Assembly (NCBI GenBank): GCA_030737835.1
Contig: JAUJYN010000025.1
Span: 1,550,001 to 1,614,000 of the forward strand
Reading direction: 5' to 3'
DNA: 64,000 nt
Origin: Acorus gramineus
Lineage: Eukaryota > Streptophyta > Magnoliopsida > Acorales > Acoraceae
Below, piece after piece: positions 41,305-62,402 of this stretch. Within the stretch, counting starts at the first letter, position 1; every line of letters starts with the position of its first letter. The notes below the pieces were generated by a model, which did no database searches, was not told the DNA's origin, and worked only from the letters and a program-made list of their open reading frames with translations. A program made the translations under genes and the position numbers.

Positions 41305-41527
41305 TGTAATAATTACGGTTTTCCAAGTCGTTTCTTGATTTTGTGCATTGGGTCATATTCAGATAAGGTTTTTGAGGACTTATATACAACCAATTTCAGA
41401 AGTTAAAGTATGGTTGGAATCGTTATTCTGTTAGCTTTCCAACGCTTTTTACAGATCGTGAATCAGATGAGTTTCGATCAAGTTATGTGCCAAATTATGC
41501 TGAAAGGTCGGACAGAGGAATAGCAAC

Positions 41528-43151
41528 GGCTCTGACGGGAGCCGTCGATTTTTCTTACAGATCCAACAGAAGCCGTCGATTTGGAAACAATTTCAAACCA
41601 AAATATTTCAGTTTTTAGAAGGTTTTAATGTGTATTATTGATTGATATGTTTGGGATACAGTCGGTTTTGATTTCCCCACGTGTATAAGCTTACATATAC
41701 CCCCCTCTCTCCCTCTCTCTTTTTCATTGAAAACCCTAAAATCTTCTTCTTCTTCTCTTGTTTTCGGCACCATTGTTGAGGAGCTCGGGAAGGGGTTCGA
41801 ATAGAGGGTTCTTGTGAGTATTATCCTCTGTTTATGAAGAGTTTTGATTGATAATGATTCCCTTTAGATGTCATTGTTATATGATTTCGGTTTTTAGGTT
41901 TTTCCAACAAAAAGATTAGAGTTTCTTCTTGATACTTGAAAGTTTTTGTATGATTTCGGGTCCTTATGATATAACAATGAAATCATAATGTTTTGTGATG
42001 TTTTACAAAGTTTTAGATGATGCTATTAGGCCTCGCATGTGTATTTTTGGATTTGTTGATTTCTTGAGCTTTTCTTCTTGGGTTTTCATAAATCTTGATG
42101 TAGTTTATATGATTTTCGGATCCTTATGTTATAGCTATTAAACCATGAAGTTTTCAAGGTGTTTTTCATATATTTTATGTTAAATGAATAGGATATGTAT
42201 ATATATCATACCTAGGTTTGGTTATTAAACATAGAAATCATGTTATGAGTTGTTTAAGGTCTTGTTTGACCCTTATATGCATAGATCCGAACCTATACAT
42301 GCTTTTATGATTTTTAAGAGTTTTTATCATAGATCCATGTTAGTTGTTTCTACATATAATAGATCTATGGTTTTCGAGGATTTTTGTAATATGGTTTAAT
42401 TTTTATATATATATATATTTTATGAATCCTTTTAAATCTAGGGTTTTGAATAGAGGGTATCATGCTAGGTTTAATAATATGTTATCTCTTGCGGTTTTCA
42501 AAGTATTTTTAAATGTATATTCAGATCCTTGGGTGTACCAAGAGTTTTAACGTTTCATCGATATTTTTACCATTATTCCATAAGCTAGGGTTTCGAATGG
42601 ATTTTCTTATATACGATTTTTGATCTATCTCCTAAATGTTTTGTACAGTTTACATATTATATATTGATTTTTGATAATATGAATAGATCTGAGTTTTTGA
42701 GAAGTTGAATAAGATTTAATTGGTTTTATATACGTGTTTTGTGAATCCTTATAAACTAGGGTTTTAATTGGATTTCTTACACACGATTAATCTTTGATAT
42801 TCCTTACTGACTTACATTGTTTTACGCGACTCATATATGTATGTAAATGGTAAAAGGTATTAGGTTGTCTTAACAAAAAAAAAATAGAGTTTTTGGATTG
42901 GTTTTAATTGAATTTCTCGTATGCATGATTTGATTTTTGAGATGAATTCTTTATCGTTTTCTGCCATTTTAAACGACTCGTGTATGGTTTTTCAATGATA
43001 GAATGTGTTAGGATATTTTAAATAAAAAATTAAGGTTTCATGCCTTCTGCCTCGGGACGGCTCCGTCGAGAGCCATCGGGCACGTTCTGGACGGCTCCCC
43101 GAGTAGCCGTCGGGTTTGTAAGGATGGCCCCAAGAGGAGCCGTCGAGTTTT
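41528..43151 (+). repeat. Recurring small hairpins ACGGCTC/GAGCCGT in the P LTR
   Basis: The motif ACGGCTC followed within a few bases by GAGCCGTCG occurs near 41528, and three related forms lie at about 43056-43150 (for example GACGGCT and AGCCGTC around a 7-base loop at about 43099). A diverged form is in the 3' LTR near 60468. Function unknown. Confidence 0.6.
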
Positions 43152-43518
43152 TGCAATTTTTCAGTGTGTACGGGCTCCATCAGATCCCTTACTGTTCGCG
43201 CATTTTGTGATCGATTCCTATCGTTTCAAGACTGGTTAGGTTGCCTTAAACCTTCTGGAGTTGTTTCATGTCGTTGGACCTAAGGTGAGTGGGTCTAGTC
43301 TCTTATGTAGTTTTCAAACTACCTATATGGTATATCATTCCGCATCATGGTTACTTTAAAATATACAACTGTTATTCTGGGTATGGAGTATTTGAACATG
43401 TCATCATGATAGATATGAGGTGGTTATTTTATATATGTCTCATATGATTTTGGATATTATATTATATTATATTGCATAGTGGAGCAGTTGGAGTGTGAGT
43501 AGTTGATCATGCATGCAT

Positions 43519-43620
43519 ATCATTCATCTGTGTGACCCCGTTTGCGTGACATCGTCTGCGTGACGCCGGTCTACGTGACCACGGTCCAGTGCAACCTTGT
43601 CTGCATGACCAGGCTCTAAA
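43519..43620 (+). repeat. Degenerate ~15-17-bp tandem repeat in the P LTR
   Basis: About five to six units around the word GTCTGCGTGAC (TTTGCGTGAC, GTCTGCGTGAC, GTCTACGTGAC, GTCCAGTGCAA, GTCTGCATGAC). No function assigned. Confidence 0.65.
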
Positions 43621-44154
43621 TGGAGCACCTCTTTGGCTGCGTGCCATACGGGCATGCATGTCCGTTGCATCATACGCATCATGTAGTATAGTGCTTATGA
43701 ATTTTACCGTTATTCCTATAAAGAGATGGATTATTATTTTACAAATTTAGTACGACTAACAAATGTTTTCCTTATGATGATATATTATGTTCTGCGTGAC
43801 TTAGATTCTATAACTCTGTTATTTTTAAAATTATTATTAACAGGATGCCATAGGTCCATTCACTGAGCGTGTGGTTGCTCACCGCTCCTTTTTCCCATCT
43901 TTCAGATTAAAGGCTTAGGGTGGTGGATCTCATATAATTGTGGACAAGTTCAGTTGTTCCCGATGTTTATCAAGTATTTGAGAACTTGTTTTGGATTTTA
44001 TCTTTGATAATTGATGAATAAAATATGGTGATATTTTCTTATGTTCTCTGGATAAAAGGAAAAAAAATAGAACTCTGAGATTTGAGGAAATTTAGTTAAC
44101 GCAACCGAATCTCACGCTTCAAAACGAAGTCGTGGATTCGGGGGCGTTATAGAG

Positions 44155-44166
44155 TGGTATCAGAGC
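44155..44166 (+). other. Primer binding site of element P
   Basis: TGGTATCAGAGC, three bases after the LTR end; initiator tRNA-Met type, as in Tekay/CRM chromoviruses and copia elements. Confidence 0.88.
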
Positions 44167-44643
44167 GTAGGTTCAACTCTCGGACTGTAGGTTATTGATA
44201 TATTAGTTGGCCTTTGAGGTTTAGAGTTTGATCTCAGTTAACCTAAAGGGTTTAGGTTTTGGCTACCCTGTATATAAAAATGTTTGGGTTATCTTATTTA
44301 GCCTAGAACTTTTATTTCCAGTTGCTTAAGCCCAATTGGCCTAGAAGTTCAGTGTTTGAGTTGATCAACCTAAGAAGATTAAGTTTTGCTATCCTATAGA
44401 AAAATTATTTGAGCCATTTGGTTACCCTATATTTTATTCTGGAGCCTAGGATGCCTTTTATGTCTAGTAATCCTATCGGATCTTAAGACGGCCTATAGGA
44501 GAATTTCCTTTGAAGCCTATGATAGGCTTAAAGTGTGTTAGGATGCATTGCATATAGGGTTTGCATTCTAACCGTTTGTTTTGTTATAGCAAAATTTTGG
44601 TGGAAAAAGCGCATATTGGGAGCGCACCAAAGTGGTTATGATT
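44167..44643 (+). other. Internal domain of P, first piece
   Basis: 477 bp, noncoding. It holds an imperfect duplication about 120 bp apart (around TTTGGCTACCCTGTATATAAAAAT at 44257 and TTTTGCTATCCTATAGAAAAAT at 44384, compared by shared words). It ends at TGATT, the target duplication of LTR R. Confidence 0.6.
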
Positions 44644-47563
44644 TGCCACGCCCCAGGGCGGCCGTCCCCGGGACGCGGCAAGTGTATATATGATATCAGT
44701 AACAGGAAACCAACAATATACCGCAAACAATCACTAAAACGACACACAGATAAAAGCAGGGCTGACATAATATATACACCGAGTGCGGAAGCTAAAAGAC
44801 TGAGTCTGTAGTCAAAACATACTACAGACTCGATACATAATCATAAGTCCTGTGAGAGCCAATATGTCATAAATATACACAACAAAATCCAAATATAATC
44901 CAACTAAGTGCCCAAGCACAGAACATATACATACAACAGAAAGAAGGGTGCTGATGGCCTCAAAACTCGTGGGACGCGGCGCTACCCTCTGCCGGTGTAG
45001 TCGCTCGGGAAGCTCCTCCCTCAGAGATCACTGAAAAGACAATATGCGAGGGGTGAGCCACACGCTCAGTGAATAGCACAACCCATGCATACAGTTCATA
45101 TTAACCACATTTAAGCAATTCATAAGCCACAAGTGGCATAATATCACAATCCGGGGGTTCGTTACATCGCCGAACCCCATACCCTCACCCTCACCCTCAA
45201 CAGGTGACCTAGGATGTTGGGACTTAGCGGGTTGATAATCATCCATACATAATCCTGTGGGTCGTCGCATCGCCGGCCCACCATACCCTCACCCTCACCT
45301 CTCAACAGGTGACCTAGGCTCTTGGGACTGACTAGGCTGTTGGTTACCCTTGGTCCACCGATAGTCTCTCCTCACTCCGTGGTTGTTTGGCCACTCCCAT
45401 GTTCAGCGCAGTCCTTCCAAGTCAGGAGGCGCCTACTAGTGGGAGCCCCTGCACGGGACAACCTGTCTAACGCCGAGGTAGTCTCTACACGGATCCGACG
45501 AGGGGAACAGAACAGCCTATCCATCGCATATGATCCACTCGGATCCGCTGACAGCACATCTCTACAATCCTAATGTCTTGAATTCCTCAGAATTCCACCA
45601 GCGCGCATAACCAGTATGCGGGGAACATGCATTTATTAATCATAATACAGGGGTGCAATATTATTGGGAAAGTAACCTGGGGAGGGCAACGTGAGGTCCC
45701 GATACAGGACGTCCCGACAACCAAACAAGGAACACGGAGTACCCTGACCCGGGTCTCAATGTTGACCTCGCAAGGCCCCTCCCTATAATATTGACTAAAA
45801 CATGCAATCCTCATTTATGCTAGCATTTGAATAAACGAATCAAACTAATAGGACGCATGTAGAGGTCGGGCTTTCCTAGCATGATAGCGAGGAGGCAGGA
45901 TGCATGGCTCATGCACAATCCTAAGGGTGCAAGTCCCTATCACACAATCTAGGGTGGCATGCAATTCTACACACACATCATGCATACATGGATTACATCA
46001 CGCAGTTAATACTAACTATAAGCCCCAGGGGAGGACGGTACACGCCCAAAGCATGTAGCGCCTCCCACACTGGGTTGGGTTGTCCCACTCACCGGAAATC
46101 GGGTCGACGCGCGACCGTCCGTCGAGATCTGCAAGACAGGGTATTAACTGGTAAGTATAAATCCACAATGACCCCAAAAATACATAACACACACAAATAA
46201 ACACCCAAAGATCCCAAATCAACACCCAACACCCTCGGCAACCACCGCTCGGCCACCCGACCGCCCGGGTGCACCGCCGCGCTTCAGCCCGCGCACCCCG
46301 CGCACCGCCGGACCCTCTGCCCGCCGCCTGGACACGCCGCCGCACCACCCCGGGGCTCCGCGCGTCCCCTGCGCCCAGCGCAGCAGTCCGCGCGCGCCCC
46401 GAACACCTCGCACCGGCCCGCGAGCACCCCGCGAGCACTCCGCACGCCCCCCCCCCCCCGCGCGCAGCACCTTCCCGCGCGCACCTCCGCCTCGCCGCGC
46501 CCTCCGCGCGCACTCTGCACACCCGCGCGCACTGCCTAGCACCTCGGCACCACCTCGCGCACGCCTAGCACACGGCACCACCTCGCGCACACTGCCTGTG
46601 CTGCCTGAGGCCCCCAGCTCGAGCACGCCAGCCCTGCCAGCCCGTCCCGCGCGCCCAGCACGACCAGCACTGCCAGCCCCAAACCCGCGCACACCCGCGC
46701 ACATGCCGCGCGCACGCACGCCCGCGCGCGCACGCGCGCATCCCCGCACGCGCCCAGCCTACGCGCTGCCTGGGCCGTTGCCGCCGCTGCCTGCTGCCCG
46801 GGACAGTGGCCCTGCCTGCCGAGCACCTCCAACCACCCCTCCCACTGCCGCCGACCACCTCCAACCACCTCCGACCACCCTCCGACGACCCCCACTGCCA
46901 CCGACCACCTCCCAAACACAAACCCCCCCCCTAGCAATCATCTAGACAAGAAAAAAGAGGGAAAGGAGGCTTACCGAGGGGAGGAAGAGGCGTCCGGTGG
47001 CTCTCCACGCGCCGGAACCTTTCCCAAAAGCCCTCACACGCCCCGATCTAGCTTGGCCTTCGAAATGGGCCAAAACAGAGGACGAAAAGGGGAGGTCGGG
47101 GAGGCTAGGATCGTCGGAACTCGGATTTGAAGACACCGGAGCGTAGATCGGGACCCGATCTACACTTCCCGTGCTTTAGGTTTTTTTTTTGAGGGGTGTA
47201 GGGGGCTCAAACGGAAGAAAAACGGAGGAGAGGAGAGAGAGAGAGCAAGTCGTAGGGATGATGAATAGTGAAATGATATTTTTGATTCCTTTTATATAGT
47301 GCGCGACTTAAAAACCCGGATACGCCCCGGAACTGTGAAATTTTTGCAAACGATGCCGGAATTCGATGAAATTTTCATGAGTGGCTTAAAACGGCACCAG
47401 GACACATAATATGCAGTTAGATTTTCAATCGGAGTCCTCTAGCTCAGACGATAGCTAACAGTCTGAAATTATGCGGTTCCGATCGAAAAACACTAAAAAT
47501 TTTAAAACTGCTAAAAATGCTCCAATGGTTGCCAATAGGCCAAAAAGTGACACATATATAACA
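44644..47563 (-). repeat. Solo LTR R, inserted in P
   Basis: Plus strand TGCCACGCCCC to CATATATAACA, 2920 bp, flanked by identical TGATT (44639-44643, 47564-47568). It contains a C-rich quadruplex complement twice (about 45180-45205 and 45285-45305), the ~125-bp module (about 45665-45785), a 36-nt exon-like segment near 46090-46130 and a GC block of a different flavour, richer in GCGCCGCGC and CCACC words. Confidence 0.92.
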
Positions 47564-47746
47564 TGATTTGTTTTCAGAGTGTTCCATGTGGCTGAGCATT
47601 CGCGACCTTCAAAAATGTCATTCGTGTTTAATTGGAGATGTGAAAGGCACATTAAAATTTGTGAATCTGCGAGGCGGTAAATTAATCTTATTTCTTCGTG
47701 TTAGATTGTCATTAGGGTTATTGTCGTCATAATTGCCCCTTTTACA

Positions 47747-47801
47747 TTGTACAAGTTGGACCATTTATGGTACGCGACGTAAATGAACCTAACTTGTACA
47801 A
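47747..47801 (+). repeat. Stem-loop 1 of the P internal array
   Basis: Arms TTGTACAAGTT (47747-47757) and AACTTGTACAA (47791-47801) are perfectly complementary. An inner stem CATTTA (47762-47767) with TAAATG (47780-47785) follows. Loop of 12 nt. Confidence 0.85.
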
Positions 47802-47853
47802 TTTGGATGAAAATTGTTTGTCTTGATTTGTTTTTCTTGTCATTGTTTGTATG

Positions 47854-47904
47854 GTATAAGTTGGACTACCTGTGGAATGGGACATAGGTGGGCCTGACTT
47901 ATAC
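47854..47904 (+). repeat. Stem-loop 2 of the P internal array
   Basis: Outer arms GTATAAGT (47854-47861) and ACTTATAC (47897-47904), extended by two G-T wobbles; inner arms ACCT (47868-47871) and AGGT (47886-47889). Confidence 0.85.
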
Positions 47905-47945
47905 AAATGATTGTGTGTAATTATGTATATTGTTGCTCTTGTTCG

Positions 47946-48007
47946 TACTATATAAGTTAAAACACCTATAGTGTGGGGCGTAGGTGGGCTTAACAACCTA
48001 TATAGTA
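47946..48007 (+). repeat. Stem-loop 3 of the P internal array
   Basis: Three stacked stems: TACTATATA (47946-47954) with TATATAGTA (47999-48007), GTTAA (47956-47960) with TTAAC (47990-47994), and CACCTA (47963-47968) with TAGGTG (47981-47986). Confidence 0.87.
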
Positions 48008-48049
48008 GTTGTTGTGATTTGTGAATGTCTTGTTGCCTTTGTTTGTGTG

Positions 48050-48128
48050 ATATAAGTTAATCCACTTGTGATTTTGGTCACTATGTATTAGAGTGGCGCA
48101 GCGGAAGCATTGTGGACCAAGCTTATAT
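48050..48128 (+). repeat. Stem-loop 4 of the P internal array
   Basis: Arms ATATAAG (48050-48056) with CTTATAT (48122-48128) and TCCAC (48061-48065) with GTGGA (48112-48116). The loop is larger than in the others. It is followed 20 nt later by the insertion of LTR T. Confidence 0.7.
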
Positions 48129-48192
48129 GATTGTTTTGTTGTTATGTCTGTCACGCCCCAGGGCCGCCGTCCCCGGGACGCGGCAAGTGTAT

Positions 48193-51100
48193 TGTTATAT
48201 ATGTGTCACTTTTAACCTTCTGGTAACCGTTGGGACACTTTAGCTATCACCCTGAGGTTGAGGGCTCCGATTGAAAATCTAACTGCATATTATGTGTCCT
48301 GGTGCCATTCCAAGCCACTCACGAAAGTTTCATCGAATTCCGGTAACGTTTCAGAATTTCACAGTTCTGAAGCGTATCCGGGTTTTGACCGAGCGAGAAG
48401 TCATTGGGAGACTTGACTTGGTCAAAGTGGGCCCCATGACTTGGTCAAATATGTTTGGATTTTAGTGTGGTTGGGTTGACTAGGGTCAAACCACACTTAA
48501 GCCTCCCTAATGCTAGCTTAAACCCTAATTAACCTAGGTTAGCCTAATCTAAGTGTGGGGATTATATATAAGTGAGCTAAAATATCTCCCCCACTATTCA
48601 TCATCTTCCCCAATTAGATTTCTCTCTCCCCCTCTCTCTTTTTCTTGGTTTTGATCTAGCTAGAGGGGTTAAAATCAAGAGCACAAAGAAGAGAAAGGTT
48701 AGATCTCATCCCGATCTATCCCCGGTGGTCTCGGATTCCAGTTCCCACGAGTATTGCCCCCTCTCTCACCCTCTTTTCTCCTCTGATTTCAGTTGGTTTT
48801 GGGGTTGAGGGAGATCTTGGTGGTGGTGGCCTTTGGGGAGGTGTTTTGGTGCGCGAAGAGCAACCATTCTTCCCCTTCCTTCCTTTCCTTCCTTGGGTAA
48901 GGCTTTCTTTCCTTCCTTTCTTGTTTAGATGCATGTTTAGGAGGTGATTTTGGGTGTGGGTGGCTGTGGGTGGCCGTTGGTGGCGGTCGGAGGCGGTTGG
49001 GGGCCATTGGTGGCCGTCGGGCAGGATGGCAGGGCAGGCGGGCTGGCAGGCTGGCTCGGGTAGGCAGGCGGGAAGGCTGGGCGTGCTGGGCATGTGCTGC
49101 CAGGCACGCTGGGCGCGTGCTGTCGGGCGCACTGGGCACGTGCTGCCAGGCGCGCTGGGCGCATGCTGTCGAGCGTGCTGCCAGGCGGGTGTTGGGCGCT
49201 GGGCGCCGTGCGGGCAGGGGCGTGCACGCGGAGCGCTGCGCAGGGGCGTAGGGCGTGCTGTGCGCGCGGAGAGGTGAGCGGGTGGTGTGCGGGTGCTGCG
49301 CAGGGGGCGCAGTGCGCGTAGGGCGAGCGGGGAGTGTGTGCGGGGCACTGCGCTGGGGCGTAGTGCGCGCGGGTGCACCCGAGGCTGGACGAGCGGGTGG
49401 TGCGAGCGGGTGATGCGAGCGGGTGGTGCGCGCGGGATGCGCGCGAGGCGAGGCGTTGGGGCGCAGGGCGTGCGGGTGTGCGCGCGGGTTGCTGCGCTGG
49501 GGCGCAGTGAGCGCGCGGTGCACTCGGGGGGCTCGGCAGGGTGTCCCGACGTGCGGGCTGGGCTCGGCAGTGCGCCTGGGTGCACGGGCTGGGGCGCGGC
49601 TGTGCGTCTGGGTCGGGTGGCCGCGCGTACGGCTGCCCGGGGGTTCGGGAGTGAGTCGGGGTGCTCGGGCTCGTGTGTGTACGGGCCGTATGTACGTTTG
49701 CCCGAGTGTTGTGTATTTTTAGTGTATTTTTGGGTTTATTTGTGTATTTTACTCACCGATTTGATTACCCTATCTTGCAGATCTTGACAGACGGTCGCGC
49801 GACGACCCGGCTACCGGTGAGTGGGACAATCCAACCTAGTAGGGAGGCGTACTACTCATTTGAGAGTGTATTGTCCTCCCCTGGGGCACCTTGGATTTAT
49901 ATTAGCTTGTTGTAATGTGTAATCCATGCAAGCATGATTAAAATGTAGTATGCATGCTACCCTAGACTTTGTATGTTAGGGACTTGCACCCTTAGGATAT
50001 GTGTAAGAGCCATGCATCCTGTTACCCTGTTCTCATGCTAGGAAGCCTCGGCCTATGCATGTGTCCTACTAGTTTAATTTATTAAATTAAATGCTAGCAT
50101 ATGATTATTTGCATGTCCTAGATAATATTATAGGGAGGGGCCTTGCGAGGTCAACATTGAGACCCGGGCTAGGGTACTCCGTGTTCCTTGTTTGGTTGTC
50201 GGGATGTCCTATATCGGGACCTCACGCTGCCCTCCCAAGGTTTCTTTTCCCAATAATATTATAACCCTCGTTAATTATTATTATATATGTTCCCCGCATC
50301 TTGGTTATGCGCCCTGGAGGAATTCTGAAGAATTCATGGCATTAGAGTAGTTGTGATGTGGTTGTCGGCGGATCCGAGTGGATCATATGCGTATGGATAG
50401 GCTGTTCTATTCCCTTCGTTGGATCCGTGTAGAGACTGCCTCAGCGTTAGAAAGGCTGTCCCGTGAAGGGGCTCCCATTAGTAGGCACCTCCTGATTTGG
50501 GACGGACTGTGCTGAATGTGGGAGTGGCCAAACGGCCTACGGAGTGGGGAGAGACTATCGGTGGACCAAGGGTGACCATCAGCCTAGTCAGTCCCAATAT
50601 CCTATGTCACCATATTGAGGGGTGAGGGTGAGGGTGTGGTGGGTCGGCGATGTAGCGACCCACTGGTTTGTAAGTCCCAATATCCTATGTCACCTATTGA
50701 GGGGTGAGGGTGAGGGTGTAGTGGGTTGGCGATAGCGACCCACTGGTTTTGTGTAGTTCCTGCCACTTTGGGGCTTGTATAATGAGTTTGTGGTTAATAA
50801 TATCTGGCGGTTAATATAACTGTGATGCATGGGTTGTGCTGTTCACTGAGCGTGTGGCTCACCCCTCGCATAATTATTATTCTCCAGTGTCATCTGAGTC
50901 GGATCTGGAGGAGGAGCTCCCCGAGGGACTTCATCAGTAGCGGAGTAGCGCCACGTCCCGCGAGTATCAGAGGCTATCAGCATTCCTTTTGCTTGTATGT
51001 ATTATATTCCGTGCTTGGGCACATGTTTGTATGTTATTTGGATGTCTTTGTATATATTGGCTCTCACAGGATAGTTGATTATGTATCGAGTCTGTAATAT

Positions 51101-51280
51101 ATTTTTGAGTTACAGATTCAGTCTTTTAGCTTCCGCTATTTGTGTATATATCATGTCAGCCCCTTTGTTGTCTGTGTTGAAAATTGTTGATGTTGTTATG
51201 GGTATATTATTGACTTCCTGTATTGACTGATGATATCATATATACTCTTGCTGCGTCCCGGGGACGCCCGGGGCGTGACA
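48193..51280 (+). repeat. Solo LTR U, inserted in T
   Basis: 3088 bp, TGTTATATATGTG to GGGGCGTGACA, identical flanks TGTAT (48188-48192, 51281-51285). Donor-like TTGGGTAAGG near 48897, GC block with 23-bp alternating units (TGCTGCCAGGC / TGCTGTCGGGC, about 49090-49190), acceptor-like TATCTTGCAG near 49780, and two quadruplex motifs at about 50620-50725. Confidence 0.93.
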
Positions 51281-52770
51281 TGTATACATGCTATCAGCAG
51301 TCTAAACAGGAGATCAATAACATACTCTAAACAACAACTAAAATGACAACACAGACGAAAGCAAGATTGACATGATATATACACAGATAGCGGAAGCTAA
51401 AAGACTGAGTCTGTAATTCAAAAACATACTACAGACTCAATACATGATCAACTGTCCTGTGAGAGCCAATATACACACATACATCCAAATAATATACAAC
51501 GGTGCCCAAGCACGGAAAATATATACATACAATCAAAAGAAAGGATGCTGATGGCCTCTAATACTCGCGGGACGTGGCGCTGCTCCGCTACTGATGAAGT
51601 CTCTCAGGAAGCTCCTCCTTCTGGTCCGACTCCGTGATAACTGTGGAAAAATATATATGCGAGGGGTGAGCCACACTCTCAGTGAATAGCACAACCCATG
51701 CATCACAATTTATATTAACCACAATTAAATCAAAGCCTCTAAGTGGCAGGAAATACACAACTCCAGTGGGTCGCAACATCGCCGACCCACCACACCCTCA
51801 CCCTCACCCCTCAATAGGTGACATAGGATATTGGGACTGACTAGGCTGTTAGTCACCCTTTGTCCACCGATAGTCTCTCCTCCACTCCGTAGCCGCTTGG
51901 CCTACTCCCACACTTCAGCACAGTCCGAATCCAAATCAGGAGGTACCTACTGATGGGAGCCCTCTGACGGGACGGCCTTTCTAACGCTGGGGCAGTCTCT
52001 ATACGGATCCAACGAAGGGAACAGAAACAGCCTATCCATACGCATATGATCCACTCGGATCCGCCAACACTTATCTCAACTTATAAATGTCGTGCATTCT
52101 TCAGAATTCCTCCAGGGCGCATAACTAAGATGCGGGGAAACATATATTATAATATTATCGGGAAAAGAAACCTTGGGAGGGCACCATGAGGTCCCGATAT
52201 AGGACATCCCGACAACCAAACAAGGAACACGGAGTACCCTAGCCCAGGTCTCAATGTTGACCTCGCAAGGCCCCTTATAATATTCTCTAAGGCATGCTAA
52301 AATACCATAAGTTCGCATTTAACTTAATAAATTAAACTAGTAGGACACATGCATAGGTCGAGGCTTCCTAGCATGAGAACATGGTCACATGATGCATGGC
52401 TCTTACACATATCCTAAGGGTGCAAGTCCCTAGCATACAAGGCTAGGGTGGCATGCATACTACATACTAATCATGCTTGCATAGATTACATATTAAACAA
52501 GTTAATATTAAACTATGGTGTCCCAGGGGAGGACGGTATACGCCCAAGTGCATATAGCACCTCCCTACTGGGTTGGATTGTACCACTCACCAATAACCGG
52601 GTCGTCGCGCGCCCGTCCGTCAAGATCTGCAAGACAGTATAACCAACTCGGTGAGTAAAATACACAAATATACACAAAATACACTAAAATACGCAACACT
52701 CGGACAAGCGTACATATGGCCTGTACGCACGCGAGTCCGAGCACCCCGACTCACCCGAACCCCCGGGCAG

Positions 52771-52836
<66 letters not shown>

Positions 52837-52839
52837 CCC

Positions 52840-52893
<54 letters not shown>
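52771..52893. repeat. 123-nt near-pure C tract inside LTR T
   Basis: Only two T residues interrupt the run (about 52834 and 52840). It replaces about 100 bp of ordinary GC-block sequence seen in N between the same flanks (GGGCAG on one side, CCCGGGTGCACCGCGCG on the other). S1 has a 13-G run at a nearby point (about 19203). It could be real expansion or an assembly or base-calling artefact. Confidence 0.8.
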
Positions 52894-52895
<2 letters not shown>

Positions 52896-54221
52896 GTGCA
52901 CCGCGCGCTCACTACGCCCCAGCGTAGCAACCCACGCGCACACCCGCATGCCCTGCGCCCCAGCGCAGTACCCCCCGCGCACCCCCAGCTCGCCTCACCG
53001 CGCGCGCACAGCATGCCTGCGCCTCTGCGCAGCGCTCCGCGCGCACGCCCCCGCACGGCCCCCTGCGCGCAGCACCCGCACGCGGCCCCGCGCGCACAGC
53101 ACGCACTGCGCCTCTGCGCAGCGCCCCGTGCGCACGCCCCCGCACGGCGCCCAGCGCGCAGCACCCGCACACTCCTGCTCCACCCGCACGCACGCCCGCG
53201 CGCACGCGCGCGTGCCCTACCAGCCTACTCTGCCAGCCCTGCCTGCCAGCCCGCCTGCCTGCGCTGCCTGCGCTGCCAGCCTACCCGAGCCAACCTACCA
53301 CCTCCCCGACGGCCACCAATGGCCTCCAACCGCCACCAGCCGCCACCAACAGCCATTCATACCCCAAAAACACTTCCTAACATACATCTAAACAAGAAAT
53401 GGAAGGAAAGAAAGCTTACCCTAGGAGAGGAAGAGAAGGGGAGGAAGAACGGGTGCTCTTCGCGCACCGAAACACCGCCTCCGCGACTACCACCACCGAG
53501 ATCTCCAACTCCGCCTAAGAGGGCTGAAATCAGAGGAGAAAAGAGGGTAAGAGAAGGGGTCACACATGTGGGAACTCGAATCCGAGACCACCGGAAGGTA
53601 GATCGGGTTCTTACCTATCCTTTCTCTTCTTAGGGTTTTTGATTTCCACCACTAGAACTAGGTCAAAAGGGGGGATTAAAGAGAGGGAGAGAGAGAGAAA
53701 TTTTGGAGAAGATGATGAATAGGAGGGCTTTTGTAGTCGTGGGATTTGTTTATACTCACACCCACACCACACACACTCACACCACTTAACTTAGGGCTAA
53801 TTAATTAGGTTTAGGCTAGGTTTAGTGAGGTTTAAGTGCACTTTGACTTGGGTCAACCCATCCACACTAGAAAACAAAGGGGGTTGACCAAGTCATGGGC
53901 CCACATTTGACCAAGTCAAGTCTCCCAATGACTTCTCGCTCGGTCAAAACCCGGATACGCTTCAGAACTGTGAAATTCTGAAACGTTACCGGAATTCGAT
54001 GAAATTTTTGTGAGTGGCTTGGAATGACACCAGGACACATAATATGCAGTTAGATTTTCAATCGGAGTCCTCAAACTCAGGATGATAGCTAACAGTCCAA
54101 AATTTTAGCGGTTCCGATCGAAAAACGAAAAAAACTGAAAAACTGCCAGAATGGTCCAATGGTTACCAGAAGGCAAAAAATGGCACATATTTAACAATGT
54201 TAATGTATGATTGTTTGCTTG

Positions 54222-54268
54222 ATATAAGTTGAAGCTTCAATGCAGAGCATTGGTGGTTTGACTTATAT
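54222..54268 (+). repeat. Stem-loop 5 of the P internal array
   Basis: Outer arms ATATAAGT (54222-54229) and ACTTATAT (54261-54268); inner arms CAATGC (54238-54243) and GCATTG (54247-54252) with a 3-nt loop. Confidence 0.87.
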
Positions 54269-54288
54269 ATTAGTTGTTTCTTTGTGAT

Positions 54289-54309
54289 GTATAAGTAGGC
54301 TACTTATAC
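54289..54309 (+). repeat. Stem-loop 6 of the P internal array
   Basis: GTATAAGTAG (54289-54298), one G, then CTACTTATAC (54300-54309): a perfect inverted repeat of 10-bp arms. As RNA it would be a 9-bp stem with a GGC loop. Confidence 0.87.
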
Positions 54310-54337
54310 CATTGTTTGTTGTGCATTGGGTGGTATG

Positions 54338-57300
54338 TGTTATATATGTGTTACTTTTAACCTTCTGGTAACCATTGGGACATTCTGGCAGTTTTTCGAG
54401 TTTTTTCATTTTTCAATCGGAACCGCAAAAATCTTGGACTGTTAGCTATCGTCCTGAGTTTGAGGACTCCGATTGAAAATCTAACTGCATATTATGTGTC
54501 CTGGTGCCATTCCAAGCCGCTCATGAAAATTTCATCGAATTCCGGTAACGTTTCAGAATTTCACAGTTCCGAAGCGTATCCGGGTTTTGACCGAGCGAGA
54601 AGTCATTGGGAGACTTGACTTGATCAAAGTGGGGCCCATGACTTGGTCAAATGTTTTTGGCTTTTAGTGTGGTTGGGTTGACTAGGGTCAAACCACACTT
54701 AAGCCTCCCTAATGCTAGCTTAAACCCTAATTAACCTAGCTTAGCCTAATCTAATTGTGGGGATTATATATAAGTGAGCTAAAATATCTCCCCACTATTC
54801 ATCATCTTCCCCAATTGATTTTCTCTCTCCCCCTCTCTCTTTTTCTTTGTTTTCAGCTAGCTAGAGTGCTTGAAACCAAGAACCCAAAGAAGAGAAAGGT
54901 TAGATCTTGTCCCGATCTACCTTCCGGTGGTCTCGGATTCGAGTTCCCACTTGTTCGACCCCCCTCTAACACCCCCTTTTCTCCTCTGATTTCAGCCCCT
55001 CTTGGGCTAGGTAGAGATCTTGGTGGAGGAGGTCTTTGGGGAGGTGTTTCGGTGCGCGAAGAGCTCCCGGTCCCCTTCCCTTCCTTTCCTCTCCTAGGGT
55101 AAGCCTATTTCCTTCCTTTTCTTGCTTAGATGCATGTTAGGAGGGTGGTTTTGAGTGCTGGTGGCTGTTGGAGGCCATTGGTGGCCGGTGAGGGGTGGTA
55201 GGGTTGCTCGGGCAGGGTGGTAGGTTGGCTCGGGTAGGCTGGCAGCGCAGGCAGGCAGCGCAGGCAGGCAGGGCAGGCAGGCTGGCTGGCGCAGGGCTGG
55301 GCGCTGTCGGGCGTGCGCACGGGAGTGCGCCCGGGTGGAGCAGGGGTGTTCGGGTGCTGCGCGAGGCGCAGTGCTTACCGTGCGCGCGGGGCCGCGTGCG
55401 GGTGCTGCGCGCAGGGGGCCGAGCGGGGAGTGTGTGCGGGGCACTGCGCTGGGGCGCAGTGCGGGCGAGTGCGCGTGCGGGGCGCTGCGCTGGGGCGCAG
55501 TGCGCACGGGTGCACCCGGGGCTGGACGAGCGGGTGGTGGGAGCTGGTGGTGCGCGCGGGGTGCGCGCGGGATGCTGCAATGGGGCGCTGGGCATGCGGG
55601 TGTGCGCGCGGGTTGCTGCGCTGGGGCGCAGTGAGCGCGCGGTGCACCCGGGGAGTTTCGGCAGGGTGTCCGGGCGTGCAGGCTGGGCTCGGCAGTGCGC
55701 CTGGGTGCGCGGGCTGGGGCGTGGCTGTGCGCCTGGATCGGGTGGCCGTGCGTACGGCTGCCCGGGGTTCGGGATTGAGTCGGGGTGCTCGGACTCGCGT
55801 GCGTACAGGCCGTATGTACGCTTGTTCGAGTGTTGTGTATTTTGATGTATTTTTGGATTTATTTGTGTATTTTACTCACGGATTTGATTACCCTATTTTG
55901 CAGATCCTGACGGACGGTCGCGCGACGACCCAGTCTTTGGTGAGTGGGACAACCCAACCCAGTTGGGAGGCGCTATATGCACTTGGGCGTATACCGTCCT
56001 CCCCTGGGGCACCATAGTTAATATTAACTGATTAATATGTAATCTGTGCAAGCATGATTAATGTGTAGAATGCATGCCACCCTAGACTTGTATGTTAGGG
56101 ACTTGCACCCTTAGGATATGTGTAAGAGCCGTGCTTCCTGTCACCTTGTTATCATGCTAGGAAAGCCTCGACCTATGCATGCGTCCTATTAGTTTGATTT
56201 ATTAAATTAAATGCATACTTATGATATTTTTAGCATGCCTTGGGGAATATTAAGGGGGCCTTGCGAGGTCAACATTGAGACCCGGGCTAGGGTACTCCGT
56301 GTTCCTTGTTTGGTTGTCGGGATGTCCTATATCGGGACCTCAGGTTGCCCTCTCTTTTCCTCATAATTATCTTATATATTCCCCGCATCTTGGTTATGCG
56401 CGCTGGAGGAATTCTGAAGAATTCAAGACATTAGAGTTGTTGTGTTGTGTTGTCGGCGAATCCGAGTGGATCATATGCGTATGGATAGGCTGTTCTATTC
56501 CCTTCGTTGGATCCGTGTAGAGACTACCCCGGCGTTAGAAAGGCTGTACCGTGGAGGGGCTCCTATCAGTAGGCACCTCCTGATTTGGGACGAACTGTGC
56601 TGAATGTAGGAGTGGCCAAGCGGCCTACGGAGTGGGGAGAGACTATCGGTGGACCAAGGGTGACCAACAGCCTAGTCAGTCCCAATATCCTATGTCACCA
56701 TATTGAGGGGTGAGGGTGAGGGTGTGGTGGGTCGGTGATGTATCGATCCACTGGTTTGTAAGTCCCAATATCCTATGTCACCTATTGAGGGGTGAGGGTG
56801 TAGTGGGTTGGCGATAGCGACCCACTGGTTTTGTGTAGTTCCTGCCACTTTGAGGCTTGTGTAATGAGATTGTGGTTAATATAACTTTGATGCATGGGTT
56901 GTGCTGTTCACTGAGTGTGTGGCTCACCCCTCGCATAATATTTTTTTCTCCAGTGTCATTTTAGTCGGATCTGGAGGAGGAGCTCCCCGAGGGACTGCAC
57001 CAGTAGCGGAGTAGCGCCACGTCCCGCGAGTATCAGAGGCTATCAGCATCCCTTTTGATTATATGTATTATATTCCGTGCTTGGGCACGCATTTGTATTC
57101 CATTCGGATGTATGTGTATATATTGGCTCTCACAGGACAATTGATTATGTATCGAGTCTGTAATATGTCCTTGAGTTACAGATTCCGTCTTTTAGCTTCC
57201 GCTTTTTGTGTATATATTATGTCAGCCCCTTTGTTGTCTGTGTTGAAATTGTTGACGTTGTAAGAGTATGTTATTGACTTCCTGTATTGACTGCTGGTAT

Positions 57301-57344
57301 CATATATACACTTGCCGCGTCCCGGGGACCCCCGGGGCGTGACA
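54338..57344 (+). repeat. Solo LTR N, inserted in P
   Basis: 3007 bp, TGTTATATATGTG to GGGGCGTGACA, identical flanks GTATG (54333-54337, 57345-57349). Donor-like AGGGTAAGCC near 55096, GC block 55200-55800, acceptor-like TTTTGCAG near 55904, one ~125-bp module (about 56255-56350) and quadruplex motif near 56708. Confidence 0.93.
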
Positions 57345-57462
57345 GTATGAGTCGGACGCATGAGCCAATTCATACTATCATTGTTTGAATTATTGTTTTG
57401 TTGCCATTGGATATCATATGTCCTTTATTTTGTGTTCTCCCTTGAATTTTGAGGACAAAATT

Positions 57463-60222
57463 TGTCACGCCCCAAGGTGGCCGTCCCCGATACGTGGCAA
57501 ATATATATAATATCAGCAGTCCATACACGAGATCAATAAAAGACTCTACACAACATCAAAGGTAATAACGCAATTAACAAGGTAGCTGACATAATATATA
57601 TACATATAGCGGAAGCTTAAACGACTAAGTCTGTAATTCAAAGACATATTACAGACCAGAATACATAATCAACTGTCCTGTGAGAGCCAATATAAAACAA
57701 AGACATCAACATACAAGTACTGTGCCCAAGCACGAGTAACAATACATACAAGGAAAAAGGGGGATGCTGATGGCCTCTCACTCGCAAGACCCAAAACGCG
57801 AACGCTGCTCCGCTACTGGTGCTACGCCTCGGGGAGCTCCTCCTTCAGATCCGACTCAGCGACAACTGGAGGAAAAGTATGCGAGGGGTGAGCCACACGC
57901 TCAGTGAATGGTACAATACACGCAACACAACTCATATTAACCTTTAAAATCATTAAAGTCCCTAAGATGGGAGTAACTGCACAAATTGGTGGGTCGTAGC
58001 GACGCCGACCCACCACACCCTCACCCTCACCCTTTAGAGGTGACATAGGACTTTTGGGAGAGATTAGACTGCTCTACACCCTTGGTCCACCGGTAGCCCT
58101 TTCCCCGGGTAGCCTCTACCTGGTATACTCCCACGATCAGTACGTTCCCGAATGCATCGGTAGTACCTACGGATGGGAGCCCTCTGTCAGGACAGCTTTT
58201 CCAACGCCGGGTAGTTCCTACACGGATCCAACGAAGGGGAGAAAACAATCTACACTCGCGGATACGATCCTCTTGGATCCGTCGACACCGGTTACTAAAC
58301 ACCGATAAGGTAACGAATTCTCAAGAATTCCCTCCAGGGTGCATAACTCAGATGCGGGGAAAAACATATTATTCATAGTGACAATTGCCAAGTATGACCC
58401 CCATAAGTGGTCATACACTTGCCTAAACTCATTAGGCAAGATTTAAGGCTTAACTTAAGCATATAACATGGATAATAAATATAAGGAATTCATCATGGAA
58501 GCATTTAAATAATATAATAACAAGGTTATAATATTTTCTAAGGCATGCTTACACTTATGCTTTTCATAGATAGCTAAGGGTATACTTAGGCAAGGTCGGG
58601 GTGCATGTAGGAATCAAATGTTATCCTAACATGGGACATGATGCATGAACAAGCATTGGTCCTACACATGATACTAGGATGTATAACCCTAACATGTTAG
58701 GTCTAACATGACATGGATGCAACCTAGCAAGCCCAATAATAACATATACATGCAAATATGGTTAATATGCAGATATGATGCCCCATGGGAAGGGCAATGC
58801 ACGTCTACGTGCATCGAACGCCTCCCAACTGGGTTGGATCGACCCACTCACCGCAACCCGGGTCATTGCGTGACCGTTCGCCAAGATCTGCAAGACAAGG
58901 GCATTCAATATGGTGAGTATAGCTACACAAAAACACTTAAAATTAACTAGAAATGCCTAAGGCATAGACATGCATGCATACGGGCCCACACGCATGCAAG
59001 CACGCACGTATGCACGCGTGTCCGAGTGCCCCAACATCCACCCGCGCCCTCAGGCTGCCACACGCGTGGCACCGCATTCGTACGCACGCACAAGCACGCG
59101 CGCACGTGCCCCCGCACCCCCTGGCGCACTACAGTGCCCCCAGATGCGCTGCAGCGTGCGCGCGCACGCTTGCCCGCACCTGCGCGCACTGCACATCCCG
59201 ACCGCGCGCACTTGCGCGCACTGCGCACCCGTGCCAGCGCCCCGTGCGCGCCTGCTAACACGCCCGACTGCGCGCGCCAGCAACCCTCTACAAGCGCTTC
59301 TGCGCGCGCACGCGCGCGGATAGCTCTACGCGCGTGCCCAGACCTCTCCCATCCTCTCCACTGCCATAGCATGCATGACCACCCTAACGGCCCTAACAAC
59401 CATTAAAACAAAGATAAGGGAGGAGGAGAGCTAACCAAAGGAGGGGAAAGAAAAGGGGAGGTATTCGGGTGCTCTTGGCGCACCAAAACCACCGCAACCG
59501 CCACCACCAACACCACTACCTCCTCAGCCACTCCACAAGCCTTACTTGGCTGAAACTCAGGGGCAAAGGGAGCATGAGAGGGAGCCTAAGAGAAGGGAAT
59601 CAACAACCACAACTACAACACACATACACACACACAGAAACACACACCTTTGTGTGCCCCTTCTCATTCACTACTCCTCCTCTTGTGCTTCTTTTTCTTC
59701 AAATCAGCACACACACAAAACAGAGAGGGATAGGGAGGCGTGAGAGGGAGTGAAAGAGAGAGAGAGGGAGCAAAAATGTTCCAATGGGGGGGGGTGATGA
59801 GAAGGGAAAAAAAGTGGAGGTAAAGACAACCTAAAACCACCCTCTAATACCAAAAGTAACCAAAGGATTTCTTAACTCTTAAGCAAGGGGGGGGGGTAAG
59901 GTTACCCAAGGTGACCATAACCACCAAAATATCCCAACACTATTCCACCAAACAAACCAGTAACGACCGAAACCCGGATACGGTTTGGAACTGCATAATT
60001 TTTAAAATGTTACTGGAATTCAATGAAATTTTTATGGGTAGTATTAAATGATATTAGGATTCATAATATGCAGTTAGATTTCAAATCGGAGTACTCGAAC
60101 TCACTCAAATAGCTAAAAGTCCAAAATTTTAGCAACTCCGATCGAAAAAAAAGAAAAATTGAAAAATGGCCAGAAATGACCCAAATGTGACCAATAGGCT
60201 AAAAAGTGACGCATATATAACA
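57463..60222 (-). repeat. Solo LTR M, inserted just upstream of the P polypurine tract
   Basis: Plus strand TGTCACGCCCCAAGG to CATATATAACA, 2760 bp, identical flanks AAATT (57458-57462, 60223-60227). It splits the conserved GAGGACAAAATT phrase from the PPT of P. Its GC block (58970-59340) is shorter, and its leader has GA/CA-rich runs near 59625-59770. Confidence 0.93.
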
Positions 60223-60230
60223 AAATTCCT

Positions 60231-60243
60231 TTAAGGGGGAAAG
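60231..60243 (+). other. Polypurine tract of element P
   Basis: TTAAGGGGGAAAG directly before the 3' LTR start at about 60246. Confidence 0.8.
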
Positions 60244-60245
60244 TA

Positions 60246-60626
60246 CGTAACGACTGTGGTTTTCCTAGTCGTTTCTTGAATTTGGTCATTGGATCATATT
60301 CCTATAAGGTTTTGGAGAATTTTTATACCTTCAACTTCTGAAGTTAAGGTATGGTTAGAATCGTTATCTGTTAGCTTTCCAACGCTTTTTACGGATCGTG
60401 AATCAGATGAGTATCGATCACATTATGGGCCTAATTCTGCCGAGAGGTCAGACAGAGGAATGGTGATGGCTCCAAGGGGAGCCGTAGATTTTCCAACGGA
60501 TCCAACAGAAGCCATCGTTTTCAAACCCAAATATTTCTGTTTTTAGAAGGTTTTAATGTGTATTATTAATTGGTATGTTTGGAATACAGTCGGTTTTGAT
60601 TTCCCCATGTGTATAAAGCTAATATA

Positions 60627-60664
<38 letters not shown>

Positions 60665-61275
60665 TTTTCATTGAGAACCCTAAAACCCCAAAATCTTCTT
60701 CTTCTTCTTCTCTTGTTTTCGGCACCATTGTTGAGGAGCTCGGGAAAGGGTTCAAAGAGAGGTTTCTTGTGAGTATTATCCTCTATTTATGAAGAGTTTT
60801 GATTGATAATGATTCATTTTAGATGTCATTGTTATATGATTTCATTTTTAGGTTTTTCCAACAAAAAGATAGGATTTTCTTCTTGACACTTGAAATTTTT
60901 TGCAAGATTTTGGGTTCTTATGATATAACAACGAAATCATAATGTGATGTTTTACAAAGTTTTAGATGATGCTATTAGGCCTCGCATGTGTATTTTTGGA
61001 TTTGTTGATATCTTGATGTAGTTTATATGATTTTCGGATCCTTATGTTATAGCTATGAAACCATGAAGTTTTCAAGGTGTTTTTCATATCTTTTATGTTA
61101 AATGAATAGGATATGTATATATATCGTACCTAGGTTTGGTTATGAAACATTGAAATCATGTTATGATGTGTTTAAGGTCTTGTTTCACCCTTATATGCAT
61201 AGATCTGAACCTATACATGCTTTTATGATTATTTTTAAGAGTTTTTATCATAGATCCATGTTAGTTGTTTCTACA
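60246..61275 (+). repeat. 3' LTR of element P, first part
   Basis: About 1 kb closely similar to 41305-42355 of the 5' LTR, with a longer CT run near 60632-60662. It is interrupted at 61276 by A'; the remainder lies beyond the window. Confidence 0.87.
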
Positions 61276-62402
61276 TGTCACGACCAGGGCAGCCGTCCCC
61301 GGGACGCGGCAAGTGTATATATGATATCAGAATCTACACAGGAGGTCAATAATATATCATACACAACAACTAGAATGACACACATGCAACAAAGGGGCTG
61401 ACATGATATATACACCAAATGCGGAAGCAAAAGACTGAATCTGTAAATAAACATTCTACAGACTCGATACTCAATCATATGTCCTGTGAGAGCCAATATA
61501 CACAAATACAACTGAACATATACAAACACGTGCCAAGCACGGAAATCAAATACATACAGTCAAGAAGGGATGCTGATAACCTCTGGCACTCGCGGAACGT
61601 GGCGCTGCTCCGCTACTGAAGGAATCCCTCGGAAAGCTCCAACTGCTGCTCTGGCTCCAGCTCAGACTCAGTGGCAACTGGGGAAAAACATATGCGAGGG
61701 GTGAGCCACACGCTCAGTGAACAACACAACCCATGCATCACAGACAATATTTACCACAATTCCATTATTTATCCAGCCTCTTAAGTGACATAACAACATA
61801 CTCCAGTGGTTCGTACTTCACCGAACCACCACACCCTCACCCTCACCCATCAATGGGTGACCTAGGCTATTGGGACTGATAATCATCCATAAACAAATCC
61901 AGCAGGTCGCTCATCGCCAACCCACTGCACCCTCACCCTCACCCTACCACGGGTGACATAGGATTTTGGGACTGACTAGGCTGTTGGTCACCCTTGGTCC
62001 ACCGATAGTCTCTCCTCCACTCTGTAGGCCGCTTGGTCTCCACCCACAACTTCAGCACAGTCCGTCACAATCATCGGGAAGCGCCTACTGATGTGGGTCC
62101 TCCGAAGGACGGCCTTTCTAACGCTGGGGCAGCCTCTACCGGATCCAACGAAGGGAAACAGAATAGCCTATCCATACGCATATGATCAGTCTCTACCGGA
62201 ATTCGATGAAATTTTCGTGAGAGGCCTAAAATGGCACCAGGACACCAAATATGCAGTTAGATTTTCAGTCGGAGTCCTCTAACTCAGGACGATAGCTAAC
62301 AGTCTAAAAATTAGCGGTACCGATCGAAAATCGAAAAAAAATGAAAAACTGCCAGAATGCTCCAACGGTTACCAGCAGGTTAAAAGTGACACAAATATAA
62401 CA
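61276..62402 (-). repeat. Short-form 3' LTR of A'
   Basis: Plus strand TGTCACGACCAGGGC to CAAATATAACA. It keeps both ends and two C-rich quadruplex complements (about 61830-61850 and 61930-61955), but lacks the GC-rich block and leader region found in full-length copies. Confidence 0.85.

Follow-up and report, generated by a model that had tools for sequence, protein, structure and literature searches.

Large retrotransposon derivatives (LARDs) such as Sukkula of barley are non-autonomous elements with long terminal repeats (LTRs), a primer-binding site (PBS), a polypurine tract (PPT) and a non-coding internal domain that is conserved between copies. All of these properties are shared by element P, which we describe here from a 64,000-nucleotide stretch of Acorus gramineus DNA (hereafter the window: assembly GCA_030737835.1, contig JAUJYN010000025.1, positions 1,550,001 to 1,614,000, forward strand). 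P is the smaller of the two, with an LTR of 2.8 kb and an internal domain of ~1.3 kb, against ~4.4 kb and ~3.5 kb in Sukkula. These dimensions also set it apart from terminal-repeat retrotransposons in miniature, which have short LTRs and almost no internal domain. P has no pol, and its presumed Ty3/gypsy affiliation is one that we take from its PPT and the style of its PBS. It is best read as a LARD-like element whose non-coding internal domain has the hairpin array at its core. An initial annotation of the window, made from the sequence, knew of no description of such an array. This holds for the array itself, since no paralogous hairpin array with compensating stems was found in the literature searched, partly by title and abstract opening, but conserved RNA structures have already been attributed to LARDs in the part of that literature covered.

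BARE2, an element of superfamily Copia that keeps pol, resembles P in being unable to make Gag. The portion of PMC3735527 consulted presents it as a gag-less parasite of BARE1 that is packaged into virus-like particles and has conserved dimerisation and packaging signals, and no duplicated hairpin array is seen in that portion. In mouse mammary tumour virus (MMTV), a stem-loop with a purine-rich loop, the ssPurine loop, is a Gag binding and packaging site (PMC8096270, in part). This is a single 5' structure in an autonomous retrovirus, whereas P has several units in its 3' half, for which Gag binding is proposed by analogy. Finally, in plant Ty3/gypsy elements of the Retand/Ogre kind, as in P, tandem units precede the 3' LTR, lying in Retand between the coding part and that LTR according to parts of PMC11963269 and PMC7004042. 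Retand/Ogre elements are mostly protein-coding, unlike P in which no proteins are recognisable, and the words hairpin, stem and secondary structure are absent from the main text of PMC11963269.

A hairpin array intrinsic to element P

The array extends from midway in the P internal domain to shortly before the PPT, taking up much of the domain's 3' half. All six stem-loops (SL1 to SL6) listed in the initial annotation are present with the same positions and arms (Table 1), and a seventh (SL7) emerges once the solo LTR at 54338-57344 is taken out at its target site and the seam is folded. We propose that these are duplicated hairpins that are kept paired as RNA and displayed to the Gag of a partner element, a reading to which we give a probability of roughly 0.37. 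Its first step taken alone, that the stems of P RNA have been selected to stay paired, is probable. The second, Gag binding, stands at about even odds if the first is granted.

The hairpins are far in excess of chance expectation. When inverted repeats with exact Watson-Crick arms of at least 8 bp and 3-65 nt between them are counted in 47740-48148 plus 54202-54337, five distinct hairpins are found (SL1, SL2, SL3, SL5 and SL6; not SL4), while dinucleotide shuffles of the same sequence hold 0.41 on average and 4 at most (0 of 2000 reach five). When each is folded on its own, SL1, SL2 and SL5 are strong, and SL3, SL4 and SL6 are unremarkable. The 3-nt insertion in the right arm of SL3 belongs to the window copy and is without counterpart in the other 39 alignment rows shown. 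A 17-base hairpin pattern scanned in viral contigs gave nine exact matches (L001-L009), which we treat as chance.

Copies of P were sought by a DNA search of the same genome (398.6 Mb in 137 contigs) in which the best 40 candidates of each query were scored, so that copy numbers are lower bounds. With 47740-48150 as query, the 40 scored of 146 candidates are the window and 39 other loci at 87-92%; the internal domain is thus conserved between copies. Another 18 loci came from a query with the 5' internal piece, and all 57 were mapped with four pieces of P: A (44149-44643), B (47569-48148), C (54202-54337) and D (57350-57462). The pieces follow one another in the order A-B-C-D within ~1.5 kb at 47 of the 57 loci (37 of 39 and 10 of 18), which shows that the array is intrinsic to P. 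Matches to the PPT and LTR start of the window lie beside these pieces at 13 of the 39 and 6 of the 18 loci, and a complete ordered series of matches, from LTR end through internal pieces to LTR start, is present in only part of the other copies.

Five of the loci were dropped for a missing or short piece B (L065, L069, L071, L076 and L078), which left 52 usable copies to be aligned with the window; 12 copies added later brought this to 64 plus the window, with the partial copies L083 and L084 left aside. In the tree, subfamily P1 (18 rows, including the window; support 1.0) is separated from a remainder that comprises P2 (40 rows, our own grouping), a weakly supported clade of four (0.46), one pair and one lone copy. 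In most P2 copies, the match to piece D is confined to its last two thirds, so that the region of SL7 differs. A few aligned copies are without part of a hairpin, and some end early. The hairpins keep the same register across aligned copies, no row among those shown resembles an empty site, and SL1 aligns with SL2 through stem and loop (see below). All this argues against the idea, already disfavoured, that the hairpins are separate small foldback elements or miniature inverted-repeat transposable elements inserted into P rather than a duplicated unit. The TA-rich ends of the units do resemble terminal inverted repeats, yet we regard such an origin as highly improbable.

Pairing tends to be kept between units and between subfamilies

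SL1 and SL2 are tandem duplicates that align without a gap through stem and loop. They have 20 homologous pairs, which were compared over 53 rows. At four of these, nearly every row has different Watson-Crick pairs in the two units (CG/TA, CG/TA, TA/CG and TA/CG), another two differ by way of G-U, and at none is the broken state the common one. In simulations with 12 random substitutions, a number chosen near the mean stem difference per copy (~32% of 40 positions), all 20 pairs were kept in 96 of 200000 trials and at least four kept doubles arose in 433. The initial annotation had read compensating arm differences across the array. Such matching within units is in part a property of any inverted repeat, and it is the comparison of SL1 with SL2, alignable duplicates with four double compensations, that is informative.

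A second line of evidence comes from the two subfamilies. In a reference structure of 136 pairs, derived from P1 alone and with no covariation bonus, the majority states of P1 and P2 are the same at 116 pairs and differ at 20. Pairing survives at 14 of these 20 (with one change at nine and two at five), including all seven changed pairs of SL1-SL3. The ratio of kept to broken pairs among these fixed differences is 10:3 in SL1-SL5, compared with 30:54 among single-copy variants (p=0.006), and 14:6 compared with 32:62 over all hairpins (p=0.003), the single-copy variants being taken as mostly post-insertion decay. When four clades are considered and no direction of change is assumed, the ratios are 15:9 against 30:54 in SL1-SL5 (p=0.018) and 21:14 against 32:62 over all hairpins (p=0.007). 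Scoring pairing gains as kept would bring p to 0.0007 and 0.00004, and we prefer the stricter figures. The inputs to all these counts were tallied by hand, and sites and clades were treated as independent, which is only roughly true. There is, in short, a preference for pair-preserving change among differences that have become fixed.

The kind of single change that fixed differences show bears on which nucleic acid is under selection. Single-copy changes away from Watson-Crick pairs show no strand preference (25 to G-U, 27 to A-C, 41 other), shared changes give 24, 13 and 15, respectively, and the single changes fixed between P1 and P2 give 8, 1 and 1 (hand tally). The G-U excess in this last class (8:1) points to sense RNA. 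In a strand-blind alignment of the arms, the sum over SL1-5 and SL7 is ~16.0 G-U per copy, compared with 6.2 A-C. The claim of selection on RNA structure made in the initial annotation is borne out in part: unit duplicates and subfamilies keep pairs beyond the single-copy rate, and against this stand the negative covariation test and the weak tree and strand tests described below.

How the array might work

P gives no sign of making protein. Five copies have longest stop-to-stop frames of 71-147 aa, and four frames from two copies have no Pfam match at E<=0.01, in agreement with the initial view of P as an element without proteins. It follows that its RNA must be packaged and copied by the proteins of another element. 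We suggest the following scenario, in which (i) an ancestral RNA hairpin would have been tandemly duplicated into ~7 units between the PBS region and the PPT, (ii) the genomic RNA of active copies would have been selected for paired stems, with the loops of the first three units keeping a purine-rich ..UGGGR, (iii) the folded units would present these loops to the nucleocapsid portion of Gag from a protein-coding partner and (iv) P RNA would be packaged and reverse-transcribed in trans, several units raising avidity.

Hairpins with changing but mostly paired stems, and with a similar purine loop in the first three, could be the mark of recognition by an RNA-binding protein, for which the partner's Gag is the natural candidate in view of the MMTV purine loop and the packaging of BARE2 RNA. 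Over 65 rows, the 8-nt loop reads GUAUGGGA in 50 for SL1 and GAAUGGGA in 52 for SL2, and the matching stretch of SL3 reads AGUGUGGGG in 54. All three are purine-rich and share the ..UGGGR motif, and inspection by eye shows no self-complementarity. Of the packaging and dimerisation roles that the initial annotation had raised as possible, this agrees more with packaging through Gag than with kissing-loop dimerisation. Our confidence in the Gag mechanism is limited by loop evidence that spans few positions and by unpaired columns that overall are not more conserved, and the same limits bear on the fullest version of the proposal. In this most specific form, the proposal is of a multivalent duplicated recognition array, with stems that are freely exchanged but stay paired, one conserved purine loop motif and parasitism by avidity; as such we consider it rather doubtful.

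The same data accommodate an RNA fold selected for something other than Gag binding. It might shield the 3' part of a transcript that is never translated, regulate polyadenylation or nuclear export, act as a compact length spacer, or help P either to evade small RNAs or to furnish them. The extent of the array, which begins midway through the internal domain and stops just short of the PPT, is consistent with such a role, as is the presence of the loop motif in only three of the seven units, so that the fold as such may matter. A search of Rfam with 40000-61500 returned eight matches at E<=1, all under the gathering threshold; among them, the - strand of SL1 has a miRNA-like match to mir-7371 (29 bits, against a gathering score of 62.6), which would suit a small-RNA function. 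Roles of this sort leave the similar purine loops of SL1, SL2 and SL3 unexplained, and we find them unlikely.

One P copy, L083, was considered as the protein-coding partner and rejected. Its three frames, in the P-sense direction, read by eye as reverse transcriptase/RNase H of Ty1/copia type, an assignment that we presume from their motifs, and they are seen as an insertion. These broken frames (L083 1603-2999) cut the hairpin array of that copy.

Points against and alternative readings

Several observations weigh against our proposal, starting with the pairing itself. Six of the P1/P2 fixed differences break pairs (one in SL4, two in SL5 and three in SL7), and the small clades show, in SL1-SL3, 10 changes with both states paired and 6 without (hand tally). 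Significant covariation among P copies, whose absence the initial annotation had named as grounds for refutation, was not detected, which taken to the letter refutes its proposal. In an R-scape-like test on 47 copies (without L025, L026, L066, L067, L068 and the window), with column changes placed randomly on the tree, a G-test with average-product correction and 60 simulations, 0 of 136 pairs were significant and 33 of 156944 other column pairs exceeded the cut-off; we judge its power to be low, the copies being too close and the subfamily split dominant. The contrast between internal and terminal branches of the tree (without L067 and L068) is weak (p=0.03 for all hairpins, 0.21 for SL1-3, 0.14 for SL1-5), and the tree-based G-U:A-C comparison gives p between 0.13 and 0.36; poor tip resolution is suspected. 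Plain conservation gives no clear signal either. Differences between P1 and P2 fall at 27 of the 272 paired columns, at 18 of 130 in unpaired parts of hairpins, at 28 of 164 in spacers and at 32 of 166 upstream; the ratios of between- to within-subfamily variation are 3.58, 3.93, 5.28 and 3.27, respectively (lowest upstream), and unpaired hairpin columns are overall not more conserved than paired ones.

A related difficulty is that, of the four doubles that separate SL1 from SL2, three fall within four neighbouring pairs, as a single switch event could produce, so that double changes could be explained by template switching between arms. The array might then be a diverged, functionless 3' tandem repeat whose units happen to hold an inverted repeat, with arms that match through recent duplication and template switching in reverse transcription. 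Repeats of unknown function between pol and the 3' LTR are indeed reported, in the part of PMC11963269 covered, for about half of recently active Retand elements, and the negative R-scape-like test is what such a repeat would give. Copying of arms does not, however, produce fixed changes that leave G-U pairs, and pair-keeping is higher among subfamily-fixed than among single-copy changes; a functionless repeat thus seems to us somewhat unlikely.

As for the form in which hairpins would be selected, the stretch 47740-48148 has a fold z of -2.1 on the + strand and -3.7 on the - strand, so the fold score alone does not pick the sense strand, and the clade-level G-U:A-C ratio is not significant (6:2 vs 19:13 over four clades, p=0.35). 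This ratio, and a - strand fold z at least as good in the two main array pieces, would be expected if the hairpins acted as DNA, as cruciforms or protein-binding palindromes in, for example, integration or replication. The predominance of G-U over A-C, both per copy and among fixed single changes, makes selection on DNA very unlikely in our view.

The Gag step has difficulties of its own. In retroviruses, packaging signals are usually found at the 5' end, and the P array is in the 3' half. The greater likeness of loops than of stems between SL1 and SL2 (identity 0.815 vs 0.677) counts in favour of the proposal, but this contrast depends on eight loop positions and is suggestive only. A Gag partner was not found: the 3' flanks of four of 42 chromodomain matches include none with a P-like LTR or array.

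Architecture of the locus

P is a genuine LTR element. Its ~1.3 kb of internal DNA is non-coding and, in the window, is split by solo LTRs with target-site duplications (TSDs; Table 1). Its 5' LTR and the start of its 3' LTR (60258-61276) are 85% identical over 1069 bp on the same strand, and 33 of the 39 listed best matches elsewhere to an LTR-end query stop at query 295-304, that is, at 44144-44153. The PBS, TGGTATCAGAGC, is presumably of the initiator tRNA-Met type. The element T/U that was initially thought to interrupt the array is instead a solo LTR at 48149-54196 in which a second solo LTR is nested, and more solo LTRs lie on either side.

Table 1. Element P, its stem-loops and the solo LTRs that split it (window positions)
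Feature	Position	Strand	Remarks
5' LTR of P	41306..44151	+	end uncertain by ~2 nt
P internal pieces after removal of solo LTRs	44152-44643, 47569-48148, 54202-54337, 57350-57462		
P internal domain, 5' piece	44152..44643	+	includes one copy of TSD TGATT; continuous with array in other copies
PBS TGGTATCAGAGC	44155..44166	+	adjoins LTR end; read from sequence
Solo LTR in P	44644..47563	-	TSD TGATT
SL1	47746..47802	+	14-bp outer and 8-bp inner stem; z -6.12
SL2	47854..47904	+	11-bp outer and 9-bp inner stem; z -6.51
SL3	47946..48007	+	z -1.45; 3-nt insertion in right arm of window copy
SL4	48050..48128	+	z -2.20
Solo LTR in P	48149..54196	-	imperfect TSD ATGTC/ATGTT; split by nested + strand solo LTR
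Solo LTR nested within 48149-54196	~48193-51280	+	TSD TGTAT
SL5	54222..54268	+	z -5.34
SL6	54289..54309	+	9-bp stem; z -1.53; may pair alternatively with SL7 (fold of P1 rows)
SL7	left part 54329..54337, right part 57350..57379	+	seam fold; 12-bp outer stem
Solo LTR splitting SL7	54338..57344	+	TSD GTATG
Solo LTR directly before PPT	57463..60222	-	TSD AAATT, flanks 57458-57462 and 60223-60227
PPT of P	60228..60245	+	followed by 3' LTR
3' LTR of P	~60246-61276, interrupted after	+	LTR match to 5' LTR

In all, one P copy holds, in 44644-60222, five related solo LTRs (each ~3 kb and with a 5-bp TSD, one of them imperfect), one of which is nested; the region is densely packed with remnants that consist of LTRs alone. 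We rejected a foldback element with 3-kb inverted arms as the explanation for this region, as the 5-bp TSDs show that the arms are separate solo LTRs. Within one solo LTR, at ~52770-52893, lies a run of ~125 nt of nearly pure C, which may be real low-complexity sequence or an assembly artefact. At the left edge of the window, a gag-like open reading frame (ORF) at 9-905 (PF03732, E 4.4e-6) lies ~1.1 kb away from position 2046, where an LTR starts after a PPT, and no ORF of at least 150 aa is listed between the two; this may be a member of the solo-LTR family that has gag, but not pol, at this place.

The 5' internal piece of P has peculiarities of its own. The window copy holds an imperfect duplication of ~110 nt (71%), and in many P2 copies a block of ~70 nt beside the PBS is repeated two to three times at ~150-nt spacing (L035 142-457 and L078 139-605, in oriented coordinates). 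The fold z of 44160-44643 against shuffles is -3.3 on the - strand and only -1.1 on the + strand. At the other end, the locus L085 (G000:C56:656300-659300) is 92.7% identical to window 59207-60637, across the junction of solo LTR and P 3' end, and 100% identical to 60228-60500, which indicates a duplicated segment or gene conversion.

Outlook

To our knowledge, little is known in plants of how protein-less LTR elements are recognised by their helpers. A duplicated hairpin array with a shared loop, as found in P, is a small and testable candidate for such a helper-recognition element. Moreover, comparing unit duplicates inside one element offers a route to detecting selection on RNA where genome copies are too alike for standard covariation tests.

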